Source: Brevibacterium picturae (GTDB lineage Bacteria; Actinomycetota; Actinomycetes; Actinomycetales; Brevibacteriaceae). Taken from it: 64,000 nt of DNA. Position numbers and translations under genes: made by a program. The notes below the pieces were generated by a model. It saw only the letters and a list, made by a program, of their open reading frames with translations, was not told the origin of the DNA and ran no database searches. The first letter of the stretch is position 1. Each line of letters starts with the position of its first letter. Positions 13,735 to 18,834 of this stretch are shown here, in pieces. The stretch is taken from positions 4,092,001 through 4,156,000 of the forward strand of contig NZ_LT629739.1 of the NCBI RefSeq assembly GCF_900105045.1. Direction: 5' to 3'.

Positions 13735-16032
13735 ATGGCTTCTTCCGCCGATTCGCGCCGCCCGCGAGGCATCTCCCGCTTAGCCTGGTGGGCGGCCAGG
13801 GCGCAGAACAACCCTGGCTACCCACGTGTCCTTGGTCCGATGATCAGGGCGCTGCAGTCCAACCACCCCAAGTCCGACATCGACCTGGTCGTCCGGGCCT
13901 ATAAGATCGCCGAGCAGGCTCATCGGGGTCAGACGCGGAAATCGGGCGATGACTACATCACCCACCCCGTGGCGGTGGCGACGATCCTGGCCGAGATCGG
14001 TATGCTGCCGGTCACCCTCGCTGCTGCGCTGCTCCATGACACCGTCGAAGACACCTCGTATTCGCTGAAGGAGCTGACGGACGAGTTCGGTCCCGAGGTC
14101 GCAGGAATGGTCGACGGGGTGACCAAGCTCGACAAACTCACCTACGGGGAATCCGCGCAGTCCGAGACCGTGCGGAAGATGATCGTGGCGATGGCCAAGG
14201 ACATCCGGGTCCTCGTCATCAAACTCGCAGATCGTCTGCACAACGCCCGCACCTGGCGTTTCGTTCCCGCTTCGTCAAGCACGAAGAAGGCTCGGGAAAC
14301 CCTCGAGATCTACGCCCCATTGGCTCACCGCCTAGGCATGAACACGATCAAATGGGAACTTGAGGACCTGTCCTTCCAGGTCCTCCACCCCAAGGTCTAC
14401 GACGAAGTGGTGCGGCTCGTCGCCGATAGGGCGCCCGAGCGTGAGAAGTACTTGGCCACGGTCTCCAATGAGCTCCAAACGGAGTTGGTGCAGTCCAGCA
14501 TCGAAGCCGCGATCACCGGGCGGCCGAAGCACTACTACTCGATCTATCAGAAGATGGTCGTGGCCGGGCACGAATTCGCTGACATCTACGACCTTGTCGG
14601 GGTACGGGTTCTCGTCGAGACTGTTCGGGAATGCTATGCCACACTCGGCATCGTCCACGCCCGTTGGAACCCCGTGCCAGGTAGGTTCAAAGACTACATT
14701 GCGATGCCGAAGTACAACATGTACCAGAGCCTGCATACGACGGTGATCGGCCCGAACGGGAAACCCGTAGAGATCCAGATTCGCACCCATGAAATGGATC
14801 GCCGAGCCGAATTCGGTGTGGCCGCCCACTGGAAGTACAAGGATCGGCGCAATCCGTCCAAGGCTGTGACATCGAACACCGCACGTTCGGTCAAGGTCTC
14901 CGACGCCGGTGAGGTTGATGACGCAGCATGGCTGCGCCAGCTGCTGGAATGGCAGCGCGAAGTCAGCGACCCCGACGAATTCCTCGACAACCTGCGCTAC
15001 GAGGTGAATTCGAAAGAGGTCTACGTCTTCACCCCCAAGGGGGACGTAATGAGCCTGCCGGCAGGAGCAACGCCGGTCGACTTCTCGTATGCGGTCCACA
15101 CCGAGGTCGGTCACAAGACGATGGGCGCACGGGTCAACGGACGCCTGGTCGCGCTGGACACCGAACTGAAGAACGGCGACTCGGTCGAAGTCTTCACCTC
15201 GAAAGATGAGAATGCGGGTCCCAGCCGTGACTGGCTGGGCTTCGTCAAGAGCCCACGCGCCCGCAGCAAGATCCGCCAGTGGTTCTCCAAGGAGCGCCGT
15301 GAGGAAGCGATCGAGAACGGTCGCGAACAGCTGGCACGTGCGATGCGTCGGCATACCCTCTCCGCCTCGGCGCTGATGAGCCAGGAGGCGCTGCAGGTGG
15401 TGGCCACAGAGCTGCGCCTGCCCGATGTCACCGCCCTCTACGCCGCGATCGGCAATGGAGTGAGCTCGGCTGCCCATGTTGTCGATCTGTTGGCCAAGGA
15501 GGTCGCAGGCGAAGAAGATGAGCCGGTTCTGCCGCCGTCGCCGCGCAATCGCACCGGACAGTCCTCGGGGCACCATTCCTCGTCCGGGGGAGTGACAGTC
15601 AGAGGCGTCGACGACGTCCTCGTGAAGCTCGCTCGATGCTGCACACCGGTGCCAGGCGACGAGATCCTCGGATTCGTCACCCGCGGTTCGGGCGTGTCCG
15701 TGCACCGAGTCGACTGCCCCAACATCGGCTCCCTCGAACGGGAGCCCGAACGGATGGTCGACGTCTCCTGGGGCGAGAAGACCAGCGGCATCTACCTTGT
15801 CCAGATCCAGGTGGAGGCACTCGATCGCTCCGGTCTGCTCTCAGACATCACCAAGGTCCTCACCGAGACCCACGTCAACATCCTGTCCGCCACGGTCGCC
15901 ACGTCCCGAGCCCGAGTTGCTCAGTCGAAGTTCGTCTTCGAGATGAGCGACGCCACCCACCTCGATACAGTGCTCTCAGCAGTTCGCAAGGTCGAAGGTG
16001 TCTTCGACGTCTACCGCATATCCGGCGGCTGA
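13735..16032 (+). CDS. rel: Bifunctional (p)ppGpp synthetase/hydrolase (RelA/SpoT homolog)
   Basis: The stringent-response enzyme; 765 residues. ATG 13735 is preceded by GAAAGGGG. Domains in order: an HD hydrolase with the HD motif ALLHDTVEDT near residue 100 and upstream His in THPVAVA; a synthetase domain with RVLVETVRECYATLGIVHARW and YNMYQSLHT (about 280-340); TGS (VYVFTPKGDVMSLPAGATPVDFSYAVHTEVG, about 430-460 in two pieces); a zinc-finger/ACT region with ARCCTPVPGDEILGF near 635; and a C-terminal ACT domain. Both catalytic halves look intact. It is the last gene of its strand run and converges with the AbiEi-like gene, 11 bp away. Confidence 0.96.
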   Translation: MASSADSRRPRGISRLAWWAARAQNNPGYPRVLGPMIRALQSNHPKSDIDLVVRAYKIAEQAHRGQTRKSGDDYITHPVAVATILAEIGMLPVTLAAALLHDTVEDTSYSLKELTDEFGPEVAGMVDGVTKLDKLTYGESAQSETVRKMIVAMAKDIRVLVIKLADRLHNARTWRFVPASSSTKKARETLEIYAPLAHRLGMNTIKWELEDLSFQVLHPKVYDEVVRLVADRAPEREKYLATVSNELQTELVQSSIEAAITGRPKHYYSIYQKMVVAGHEFADIYDLVGVRVLVETVRECYATLGIVHARWNPVPGRFKDYIAMPKYNMYQSLHTTVIGPNGKPVEIQIRTHEMDRRAEFGVAAHWKYKDRRNPSKAVTSNTARSVKVSDAGEVDDAAWLRQLLEWQREVSDPDEFLDNLRYEVNSKEVYVFTPKGDVMSLPAGATPVDFSYAVHTEVGHKTMGARVNGRLVALDTELKNGDSVEVFTSKDENAGPSRDWLGFVKSPRARSKIRQWFSKERREEAIENGREQLARAMRRHTLSASALMSQEALQVVATELRLPDVTALYAAIGNGVSSAAHVVDLLAKEVAGEEDEPVLPPSPRNRTGQSSGHHSSSGGVTVRGVDDVLVKLARCCTPVPGDEILGFVTRGSGVSVHRVDCPNIGSLEREPERMVDVSWGEKTSGIYLVQIQVEALDRSGLLSDITKVLTETHVNILSATVATSRARVAQSKFVFEMSDATHLDTVLSAVRKVEGVFDVYRISGG

Positions 16033-16043
16033 CTGATGCTGCG

Positions 16044-16598
16044 TCAGCCACGGTCTGATGCGGCACAGATGCGCTCGAAGACGCTTCGCATCTGGGCCAC
16101 ATACGGTCTGCGAGAGACCTCTGCCAGATACAACCGGAACCGCTGTCTGGCTCTGCCGGGAAGTTCATCGATGAGATTCTTCACAGCCTGGGCCGAGCGA
16201 TCGTCGGGGCAGTGCAGGTGGGGAAGCAGCAGGTCGTAGAGCGTTCTCTCCGCAGTGGTGATGGGGTGATCGTTGATGAGCTCCCATTCGTCCTGCGCAA
16301 TCGTGAGCTCATGGACGACGATCTCGCACCCGTCGACGTAGCGCCGCCTCGGATAGGTGATGAACGTCAGCGGACTCGGGGCCCTGCCGAGACCGCTGTG
16401 GACCCACCAGGCGATGTCGTGGGAGAGCACAAGGCGCGGCGGGATCTGCGCATGCAGTGCAGCCATGCGGTCCTCCGAGCTGAGAACAGCACCCTTGCGG
16501 ACCCACGTGGACTCGGTCAGTCGCGTCAGCAGACCGTCCAGTGTCAGCTCGGTGAGGTGCTCGTAGCTGTAGTCACGCAGATGAAACATCGCCTCCAT
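16044..16598 (-). CDS. AbiEi antitoxin-like protein, orphan
   Basis: A 184-residue protein on the minus strand. The central part (about 50-125) has the pattern LVLSHDIAWWVHSGLG, FITYPRRR, VVHELTI and HPITTAERTLYDLL, which resembles the C-terminal domain of actinobacterial type IV AbiEi antitoxin-like proteins; the usual N-terminal winged helix is short or diverged, with LTLDGLLTRLTES-TWVRKGAVL as the likely equivalent. No nucleotidyltransferase toxin (AbiEii) lies next to it. The only in-frame starts are ATG at 16598 and ATG at 16589; an in-frame TGA lies upstream and no SD is present. Both ATGs lie inside a perfect 21-bp inverted repeat (16585-16630), which suggests autoregulation. The family call is from recalled pattern, not a search. 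Confidence 0.6.
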   Translation of the reverse strand: MEAMFHLRDYSYEHLTELTLDGLLTRLTESTWVRKGAVLSSEDRMAALHAQIPPRLVLSHDIAWWVHSGLGRAPSPLTFITYPRRRYVDGCEIVVHELTIAQDEWELINDHPITTAERTLYDLLLPHLHCPDDRSAQAVKNLIDELPGRARQRFRLYLAEVSRRPYVAQMRSVFERICAASDRG

Positions 16599-16630
16599 AC
16601 AGCCACTATTGGCTGTATGGAGGCGATGTT
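16585..16630. repeat. Perfect 21-bp inverted repeat over the AbiEi-like start codon
   Basis: Arms 16585-16605 and 16610-16630 are perfectly complementary around a 4-nt loop (ctat). The first and second possible ATG of the minus-strand gene lie in one arm; the other arm is its mirror, so both strands read ATGGAGGCGATG. It could be an operator bound by the gene's own product, or an RNA hairpin that hides the start codon. The rest of 16631-16717 shows nothing else. Confidence 0.8.
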
Positions 16631-16717
16631 CAAGACCGAGGAATCAATCTGTGGATAAACCGCGACTCATGCTCGGTTGTCTGTGGAAACCGAGTCTGCT
16701 CGTCTCGGCAGCCGTCA

Positions 16718-18070
16718 TCAGCTCAGCTCGGCGGCTGTCTGAGCCAACTGGTCTCGCCAAGCGCGACGCGCGTCGAGAGCCGACTGCGCCTCTGCAACGG
16801 CCTTCTCATCACCGCTGGACTTGGCCTTCTCGAACTTCTGCTCCAACTCGGCGATCGAATCATCGAGTTGGCTCAGCGCACCGGACGTGCGAGCCTTGGT
16901 CTCCGGGTTGCTGCGCTTCCACTCAGCGTCCTCTGCGTCGGAGAGTGCGCGTTCGACCTCACGCAGTCCGTTCTCCATACGAGAGACATCGGCACGAGGC
17001 ACCTTGCCGGCAGCTTCCCATTCGTCCTGAATGACGCGCAGCTCCTTCTTCGCCACGCCGACATCACCGATCGGCAGCAGGCCCTGCGCCCTGGCCAGGA
17101 TGGCCTCTTTGACCTCGAGGTTGCCCTTGTACTCCTCGTCGACCGCAGCATTCTCTGCATCTCGAGCGGAGAAGAAGACGTCCTGGGCTGCACGGAAGCG
17201 AGCCCATAGAGCGTCATCGTCCTTGCGTGAGGCCCGGGGAGCCTTCTTCCACTGGCTCATCAGGTCCTTGTACTTCTGGGACACCGTGCGGAAGTCGGTC
17301 GAATCCGACAGAGATTCCGCCTCGGCCACGATCTTCTCCTTGATCCGCTTGCCCTCGGAGTTCTGTTTGTCGAGTTCAGCGAAGAATTCCTTGCGCTTGT
17401 GCTCGAACGTGTTCCGAGCCTGTGAGAAGCGGCCCCACAGCTCTTGGTCCACGGCGCGCGGCAGCCGGGGGCCGCTGCGCTGCATGTCCTTCCACTGGCC
17501 GAAGAGCTCACGCAGACGTGCCCCGGACTGCTTCCACTGGATCTTCGCGGGATCGCGCTTGGCCAGTGATTCCGCCTCGGCGACGATCTCTTCGCGTTCC
17601 TCAGCCGCTTCGAGTTTCGCTGCCTCTGCGCGTGCCGCCTGCTTCGACTCGGTGGCCTGCGCATCCGAGATCAGGGTGTCCAACGTGGCGGAGAGGCCCT
17701 TGAGGTCGCCGACGACATTGGCTTCGGGCAGAGTCTGCTGCAGAGTCTTCGCAGCGGAGACCACCTCGCGACCTGGGGCACCGGCTGAGAGACGGTTGCG
17801 GAGAAGCGCCGCGTTCTCGACGAGTTCGACGTATTTCTTTGCGAAGTACTCCAGGGCCTCGTCAGGGCTGGCATCGGGGTACTGCCCGACCGCACGCTCG
17901 CCGTCAGCAGTGACGACGAAGACATTGCCCTCCTGATCTGCTCGACCGTGCTCCGTTGCGCGCCGGACTTCCGCATCATGATCAACGGTGGTCCCGGTCA
18001 CGGTCTGGGCCGCCTGCGGGCGGGGCAGAGAGGACGGGCGCGGGACCGGCTTCGGGGTCGGGGTCGACAT
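16718..18070 (-). CDS. DUF349 domain-containing protein
   Basis: A 450-residue, highly charged, mostly helical protein with at least three DUF349 repeats (W-x5-R-x-LF/DLM-xQWK and LWxRF patterns, for example LRELFGQWKDMQRSG, YKDLMSQWKKAPRAS and LRVIQDEWEAAGKVPR). The start at 18070 has AGGTGAG just upstream on the minus strand; an earlier in-frame start at 18205 lies over the divergent MBL promoter and is rejected. The C-terminus is a likely coiled coil (DSIAELEQKFEKAKSS). Function is unknown; the fold suggests a scaffold or nucleic-acid binding role but nothing in the context shows it. It is a single gene, divergent from the MBL gene. Confidence 0.85.
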   Translation of the reverse strand: MSTPTPKPVPRPSSLPRPQAAQTVTGTTVDHDAEVRRATEHGRADQEGNVFVVTADGERAVGQYPDASPDEALEYFAKKYVELVENAALLRNRLSAGAPGREVVSAAKTLQQTLPEANVVGDLKGLSATLDTLISDAQATESKQAARAEAAKLEAAEEREEIVAEAESLAKRDPAKIQWKQSGARLRELFGQWKDMQRSGPRLPRAVDQELWGRFSQARNTFEHKRKEFFAELDKQNSEGKRIKEKIVAEAESLSDSTDFRTVSQKYKDLMSQWKKAPRASRKDDDALWARFRAAQDVFFSARDAENAAVDEEYKGNLEVKEAILARAQGLLPIGDVGVAKKELRVIQDEWEAAGKVPRADVSRMENGLREVERALSDAEDAEWKRSNPETKARTSGALSQLDDSIAELEQKFEKAKSSGDEKAVAEAQSALDARRAWRDQLAQTAAELS

Positions 18071-18177
18071 GATTCTCACCTTGTTTCCATCGGTCGAACC
18101 TGCAGGGCTCTGTGCCGGCAGATCACTCGATTTCCTGATTGACGTTATCCCAGCATAACCAAGCCCCAGGCTCTGGA

Positions 18178-18183
18178 TAGACT
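18178..18183 (+). promoter_or_regulatory. -10 box for the MBL gene, likely leaderless
   Basis: TAGACT lies 6 nt before the ATG at 18190, with no SD between. Transcription would start at or next to the start codon. No good -35 at 16-19 bp. The gap 18071-18189 is the divergent promoter region shared with the DUF349 gene. Confidence 0.45.
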
Positions 18184-18189
18184 TTGAGC

Positions 18190-18834
18190 ATGGATGTATT
18201 TGCAACCCGTGCCGAATTCCTCGAAGTCAACTGCTACGCCGTGCGTGCCGAAGGCCATGACGACGCCATATTCGTCGACTCGGGATTCGACTGCGCACCC
18301 GGTCTGGCTGAAATCGTTGAGGAGGAGAATCTGGTGCCTCGCGCCGTCTTCCTCACCCATGGTCACCCGGACCACATCCTTGGCCTGACAAACGTCCTGT
18401 CCCGTTGGGAAATGCCCGTCTACCTCGGTGCTCCCGACCGCTACCGTCTGGACAGACCCGCCGAGACCTTGAGCCCGCAGTTCGCACCGATGCTCGAACC
18501 CCTCGTCAAGGACTGGACAGCACCCGAGGTCAACGCCCTCCTCGACGCACAGACAGTGGAAGTCTCCGGACTCACCATCACGGCTGTGGCCGCACCCGGA
18601 CACACCGAAGGCTCGACCCTGCTGCGGGTGCAGGCCGATGGGGAAGAGATCATCTTCACCGGTGATGTGGTCTTCGCCGGGGCGATCGGCCGGGTCGACC
18701 TCCCGGGAGGAGACGCCTCGGCGATGGCGGAATCGCTGCAGGCGTTCACGACGCTGCCCGACGTTCCCATCTATCCTGGACACGGCCCAGGCTCCCGAGT
18801 CGGTCACGAACTGGCGACGAATCCGTTCTTCTAG
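18190..18834 (+). CDS. MBL-fold metallo-hydrolase (glyoxalase II-like)
   Basis: A 214-residue metallo-beta-lactamase-fold hydrolase. The metal-binding signature THGHPDH (HxHxDH) is at about residues 57-63; the further ligands are His in APGHTEGS, Asp in FTGDVVF and His in YPGHGPG, giving a complete binuclear site. The segment GRVDLPGGD is like glyoxalase II/persulfide dioxygenase relatives, so a thioester hydrolase is plausible; the substrate is unknown. ATG 18190 is preferred to the TTG at 18184. It lies 66 bp upstream of hisS on the same strand, a conserved pairing in actinobacteria. Confidence 0.9.
   Translation: MDVFATRAEFLEVNCYAVRAEGHDDAIFVDSGFDCAPGLAEIVEEENLVPRAVFLTHGHPDHILGLTNVLSRWEMPVYLGAPDRYRLDRPAETLSPQFAPMLEPLVKDWTAPEVNALLDAQTVEVSGLTITAVAAPGHTEGSTLLRVQADGEEIIFTGDVVFAGAIGRVDLPGGDASAMAESLQAFTTLPDVPIYPGHGPGSRVGHELATNPFF

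Follow-up and report, generated by a model that had tools for sequence, protein, structure and literature searches.

What is a long, perfect inverted repeat doing over the start codon of a bacterial gene? The question is raised by the window, that is, the whole 64,000-nucleotide stretch of Brevibacterium picturae DNA analysed here, in which a gene for an AbiEi-like protein begins inside such a repeat. We propose that the repeat works at the level of double-stranded DNA, as the operator of a leaderless promoter, most likely bound by the gene's own AbiEi-like product in negative autoregulation, and we give this reading a probability of about 0.68. A sequence-only reading of the locus had suggested an operator at a leaderless start; the suggestion is supported by the fixed position of the dyad, compensatory changes between the arms, the -10 element and constraint on synonymous codons, from which we infer binding and the RNA end. 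On this proposal the repeat would be a clear case of an operator constraining codons, with covariation as evidence, and the gene between rel and the DUF349 gene would be one conserved representative for experiments.

The repeat and the promoter

The two arms of the repeat are 21 nt long, 100% complementary and separated by a 4-nt loop, as the sequence-only reading had described, and it was right that both ATGs of the minus-strand ORF (16598 and 16589) lie inside one arm. Among the five inverted repeats listed in the window (arms of at least 15 nt, gap of at most 40 nt), it is the longest perfect one. With 3 mismatches or fewer allowed, the window has no copy of the arm sequence beyond the two arms, and the arm has 0 occurrences in 100 shuffles. 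A second perfect inverted repeat, with 16-nt arms and a 4-nt loop, lies at 992-1027. The features of the locus are collected in Table 1.

Table 1. Features of the AbiEi-like locus, in window coordinates
Feature	Position	Strand	Remark
rel	13735-16032	+	named from its sequence
AbiEi-like orphan gene, 184 aa	16044-16598	-	presumed leaderless start, ATG at 16598
Codons 2-6, little synonymous variation	16581-16595	-	
Coding-side arm	16585-16605		-7 through codons 1-4, into codon 5
-10-like hexamer AATAGT	16605-16610	-	ends 6 nt before the ATG, at the dyad centre
Upstream arm	16610-16630		mostly within the -35/-10 spacer
-35-like TTGAAC	16628-16633	-	17 nt from the -10
DnaA-box-like TTATCCACA	16650-16658	-	its TCCACA starts at -57
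Second, weaker box-like GTTTCCACA	16682-16690	-	32 nt further upstream
DUF349 gene	16718-18205	-	PF03993, E 1.6e-44

To judge from the sequence, a -10-like element at this distance from the ATG is the anatomy of a leaderless start, with the 5' end of the RNA presumably at the start codon. The repeat arms flank this element, one in the spacer and the other over the first codons. Across the genus the hexamer has A at -11 in 56/57 loci and T at -7 in 55/57, and a TTG is found at -35, -36 or -37 in 51/57. Upstream conservation among 32 representatives (less than 75% alike) is highest in the DnaA-box-like element (-59 to -51), the -35 and the -10. No Shine-Dalgarno sequence is seen by eye before the gene, in agreement with the sequence-only reading, and a scan with an E. 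coli-type consensus returned no promoter. Extra upstream start codons differ among the genomes, and the upstream frame is therefore no shared coding region.

The proposed mechanism is as follows. RNA polymerase would use TTGAAC-17-AATAGT and begin transcription on the A of the ATG or on an adjacent base. Both arms would be bound by a protein, most probably the AbiEi-like one encoded by the gene itself, which would thereby cover the spacer and the first codons, so that the promoter would be blocked. That the effect would be negative is deduced from the promoter anatomy together with published work on AbiEi and Rv2827c. The site at -57 is probably a second input, through which DnaA or another TTRTCCACA binder would activate or repress. 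The layout has counterparts: PY54 Cro and CrtR of C. glutamicum act at autoregulated leaderless promoters, with the repressor operator at the start. The protein families, however, are unrelated to that of the window gene.

Conservation of the gene and of the repeat

A homologue of the AbiEi-like gene is present in 57/57 Brevibacterium genomes. That it stands alone between rel and the DUF349 gene had been noted from the sequence and holds for the genus: the same two neighbours flank it in 56/57 genomes, the exception being L028, whose contig breaks off within the gene. The neighbourhood is conserved well beyond the genus, in order-level loci. The first 19 order-level regions yielded 16 distinct syntenic loci, L065 and L087 being one place and L064 and L066, which have neither neighbour in the stretch covered (L064 at a contig end), being left out. 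Five further syntenic regions (L156, L157, L159, L166, L168) have DUF349 adjoining, two of them also rel, for a total of 21; the order-level loci were picked as protein matches and are no unbiased sample of the order. In L015 and L041 an in-frame TAG lies near the 3' end of the matched stretch, and the gene ends earlier there.

The gene was rightly called an orphan: no AbiEii toxin gene adjoins it, its neighbours being rel and DUF349. The sole AbiEii match in this genome, above the cut-off with E 4.1e-6, is at 1.04 Mb, 3 Mb away, and any AbiEii match is found in 29/57 genus genomes.

The repeat has a narrower distribution, so that its conservation in related genomes is partial. With presence set at 11 Watson-Crick positions of 22, it is found in 33/57 genomes, all within one 38-genome clade (groups A and B), where L017, L025, L047, L048 and L050 are without it. 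The other 24/57 genomes keep the gene and the box with the repeat absent, and therefore autoregulation through the repeat would be lineage-specific. When the sequences are aligned at the ATG, groups A (13 genomes) and B (25 genomes) both have a palindromy peak centred at -10.0, with 70% and 68% of positions paired, respectively; the average across all centres is 26%. Group C (19 genomes) has no peak and no repeat at the start. The dyad centre stays between -9.5 and -11 in the 33 genomes; the extremes are this genome (L006, -9.5) and L042 (-11), their offsets set by hand from the palindromy scan. Arms that pair at 21/21 positions occur in this genome only, relatives having fewer paired positions.

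The pairing is preserved by paired changes. Over 25 distinct rows, Watson-Crick cells number 397 versus 353.7 +/- 5.1 in 2000 shuffles, and double-change cells 36 versus 16.1 +/- 2.7. The core, CGCCTCC/GGAGGCG, is Watson-Crick in all cells but one, an outermost T-G. Shuffles ignore relatedness, and a second count was therefore made on a tree of the DUF349 neighbour, built by a quick method, with many weak forks and a support of 100 for the 38-genome clade. This tree gives at least 9 compensatory double changes over 7 pairs, the paired states always differing on both sides. Repeat presence requires 4 changes on it, for which the simplest account would be a single gain in the ancestor of the 38-genome clade followed by three losses.

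The coding arm appears to be constrained at synonymous sites also. Codon 3 is GCG in 32/32 genomes and codon 5 TTT in 32/32 (the incomplete L028 left out); in the rest of these genes 1% of Phe codons are TTT. Later codons have a mean entropy of 1.03 bits over 40 comparable codons, codons 23 and 61 being invariant too, as frozen as codon 3.

The protein and the weighing of explanations

We class the protein as AbiEi-like, by its fold and its orthologues, and do not count it as part of an AbiE toxin-antitoxin pair. The name given on first reading thus stands at these levels and not at that of the protein's own family matches. Searches of Pfam and NCBIfam returned no AbiEi family for the window protein up to E 1. 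The 56 genus members scanned gave one weak AbiEi_3_N match (0.23) and two UTRA matches, and in those two members the unrelated UTRA domain (best 0.0014) outscores any AbiEi model. Among order-level syntenic orthologues (9 of 16 scanned), 6/9 match AbiEi_1 at E 0.1 or better, with L091 over the cut-off (23.2 vs 22.2 bits) and L080 at it; L063 matches AbiEi_4 (0.068), and L082 and L085 have no family match. An AlphaFold2 model built from 56 genus sequences has a mean pLDDT of 88. Its best two PDB chains by Foldseek are both AbiEi 6y8q (E 0.037 and 0.039, TM 0.38), and no chain matches at an E of 0.001 or below. VIA gives Z 6.4 to AbiEi (rmsd 8.6, 155 aligned), where a Z below 8 is, according to the tool, possibly a mere common arrangement. 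None of the 7 profile matches to PDB sequences up to E 10 is AbiEi. The modelled fold match to AbiEi is modest.

Two known proteins invite comparison. In the part of PMC7319586 drawn on here, S. agalactiae AbiEi, of the type IV toxin-antitoxin system AbiE, recognizes a pair of 23-bp inverted repeats separated by 3 bp, and negative autoregulation is shown experimentally for it and for Rv2827c of M. tuberculosis. The window gene resembles S. agalactiae AbiEi in the modest fold match and, closely in geometry, in its 21-bp arms 4 bp apart; it differs in having no adjoining AbiEii, no Pfam AbiEi match of its own and a repeat over the start codon. The TTRTCCACA box at -57 would be a further difference. 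Rv2827c, an autoregulating protein of the AbiEi family (1zel, VIA Z 3.7), is similar in that its repeats overlap the promoter; it differs, according to the same portion of PMC7319586, in its two repeat pairs with 13-bp gaps and in the toxin partner Rv2826c in its operon.

These comparisons bear on what binds the repeat. The arms might be the operator of another repressor, with the AbiEi-like protein acting elsewhere: no sequence evidence links that protein to the repeat DNA, and 24/57 genomes keep the gene with no repeat. We consider this unlikely, since the 57 genomes show no enrichment of the core motif pair at other sites (171 forward matches vs 227 reversed-control matches), as would be the case for a dedicated operator, and AbiEi proteins, as described in the part of PMC7319586 drawn on here, autoregulate through inverted repeats. 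In four genomes (G012, G027, G065 and G007) the sole motif-pair match is the site at the AbiEi-like gene. An RNA hairpin, the other role proposed from the sequence, could hide the start codon in transcripts reading through from DUF349. Because the DUF349 and AbiEi-like genes share a direction, the repeat is directly 3' of DUF349; as RNA it folds at -41.3 kcal/mol (z -11.3), and G-U pairs result from some of the changes in the arms (39 of the 153 non-Watson-Crick cells, 21 of these at the outermost pair). Against this, a leaderless transcript would carry one arm only, its first 18 nt barely fold (-2 kcal/mol), and the dyad is centred on the -10 at constant spacing, which makes the hairpin improbable.

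The two explanations that involve no regulation of the start fare worse. In quasipalindrome correction one arm is copied from the other by a template switch, and a neutral palindrome kept perfect in this way would have arms that change together, as they do here; this genome, moreover, has the most perfect arms among those compared. We regard it as very improbable: by eye, one deleted base in the loop region separates the window repeat from that of its near relative L036, so that no template switch is needed, the 7-bp core is kept as described above and the synonymous sites of the coding arm are frozen. A template-switch origin of the perfect arms, considered from L007-L012, was dropped for the same one-base difference. 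An intrinsic terminator for DUF349 or rel, including the bidirectional terminator for rel considered at the outset, has a stable stem in an intergenic gap to recommend it and is hardly credible. There are 0 terminator-like sites in 16500-16760 and no T run after the stem, and the repeat lies about 550 bp past the rel stop, beyond a whole gene and over a coding start. The preferred reading is thus that of an operator at a leaderless promoter, for the gene's own product.

A DnaA-box-like element before AbiEi-like genes

The element at -57 does not figure in the sequence-only reading. At 57/57 genus loci a TCCACA lies 56-59 nt before the ATG on the gene's strand, and at least 2 copies are present in 41/57, with a spacing of 32 nt in most cases between the upstream two. 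A third copy lies within the repeat in nine genomes, and L062 has an additional inverted copy at -98. The copies at the genus loci total 107, versus 1.31 expected from shuffles. In 16/16 order-level syntenic loci a TCCACA precedes an in-frame ATG or GTG at the same distance, -56 to -59; for L063, L080, L082, L083 and L092 the start used is not the most upstream listed and was picked with knowledge of the box. In the five further syntenic loci some in-frame start puts the box at -57 or -58 (21/21 overall), and in 4/15 non-syntenic AbiEi-like regions some in-frame start, in one case a TTG, puts it at -56 or -57. Judged from these sequences, the TTRTCCACA box at -57 is older than the repeat.

The part of PMC4285127 used here (Table 1) gives the high-affinity DnaA box as TTATCCACA in E. 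coli and TTGTCCACA in M. tuberculosis and S. coelicolor. The window box is identical to the former, relatives have the latter, and both occur beside dnaA in this genome. The locus shares with DnaA-regulated promoters, as far as that portion of PMC4285127 describes them, a high-affinity box sequence, DnaA binding here being putative. It differs from them in that the box stands at a fixed distance from a leaderless start and recurs in one gene family. In the open-access papers searched, we found no report of DnaA binding at such a box before AbiEi-like genes or of this arrangement.

The idea that the box is confined to the rel locus is not upheld by counts over the AbiEi_4 family (PF13338) at the class level. 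We collected 90 matches (30 loci from 79 class-level genomes and 60 more by rank, 5 listed being skipped) and took as start the nearest ATG or GTG at or before the domain, which left 89 usable genes in 43 genomes (L257, with no start, was dropped). Neither rel nor DUF349 is found at the 90 loci, 60 of which span at most 450 nt upstream of the domain. TCCACA is present at -55 to -59 in 29/89 genes and its inverse, TGTGGA, at -46 to -51 in 12/89, that is, one or the other in 41/89 genes from 27 genomes; more than half have no box at these offsets. Each is the commonest hexamer at its offsets, the best other permutation of TCCACA reaching 5. The inverted class, in which for example L181, L184, L187, L188 and L199 have TGTGGA at -48 instead of a forward box at -57, was first noticed in the first 30 loci; the 59 loci independent of that noticing give 21 forward boxes and 6 inverted ones. 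When the rule is relaxed to admit any in-frame start within the 240 nt before the domain, 36 forward and 14 inverted boxes are counted among the 89, compared with 0 and 0 at 30 MarR control loci, the 30 returned from 60 genomes.

Promoter anatomy goes with the box. A is at -11 in 59% of the forward and 67% of the inverted class, and T at -7 in 66% and 92%; the corresponding values in the 48 box-less genes are 27% and 29%. Shine-Dalgarno-like sites number 0/41 in box-bearing genes and 7 among the 48. The consensus, T[TC]GTCCACAG, fits the DnaA box TTGTCCACA. From the first 30 loci, 10 of 14 box-bearing proteins were scanned; these are of 297-379 aa, and 5/10 have MTES_1575 or DUF559 nuclease-like ends (E 0.01 or better). 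Of the box-less proteins scanned (10 of 16), seven are of 191-287 aa and 2 have such ends.

A tentative proposal, to which we give less credence than to the operator, is that of an actinobacterial module. That is, many AbiEi_4 and AbiEi-like genes, often with a restriction-endonuclease-like C-terminus, would be leaderless and have a DnaA box at -57 (inverted, -48) through which DnaA might set expression, the self-operator having been added in one Brevibacterium clade. If the box is a DnaA site, there would be a link between the replication state of the chromosome and a widespread family of toxin-antitoxin-like and nuclease-like genes, and that state would be a direct cue for when such genes are expressed.

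Sites were surveyed one by one in two genomes, this one (G000) and G299, which are too few for a genome-wide statement. The notion of TTRTCCACA as a common genome ornament was rejected, there being 26 sites in 4.44 Mb versus 18 for the reversed control. Three of the 26 in G000 are at -57: one precedes the window gene, one a gene of 333 aa whose AbiEi_1 and DUF559 matches are weak and under the cut-offs, and one a spurious-looking 130-aa TTG ORF. A 62-aa GTG ORF has its site at -56, and other ORFs have theirs at -50 to -53 or -60 to -63. In G299, an ORF longer than 80 aa starts 54-60 nt downstream of the site in 5/15 cases. By eye, two of these five genes are AbiEi/DUF559-like, two are adjacent genes of unassigned kind and one, with AGGAGG, is nrdR-looking; a sixth site (L304) is an inverted box at a 288-aa ORF. 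That the box is exclusive to AbiEi-like genes is therefore unsupported, G299 having it before other genes. The boxes before the nrdR-looking gene and two nearby genes (917254, 946856 and 948736; L301-L303) are at -57 or -58.

In four loci (L084, L087, L088 and L093) the TTATCCACA box lies, by eye, in a hairpin loop 3' of the DUF349 gene, so that bases are common to the box and a possible terminator. Finally, three TTRTCCACA sites lie within 126 bp at 1963876-1964001 of G000 (L105-L107), about 61 kb from dnaA, and may form a second, predicted DnaA-binding cluster.
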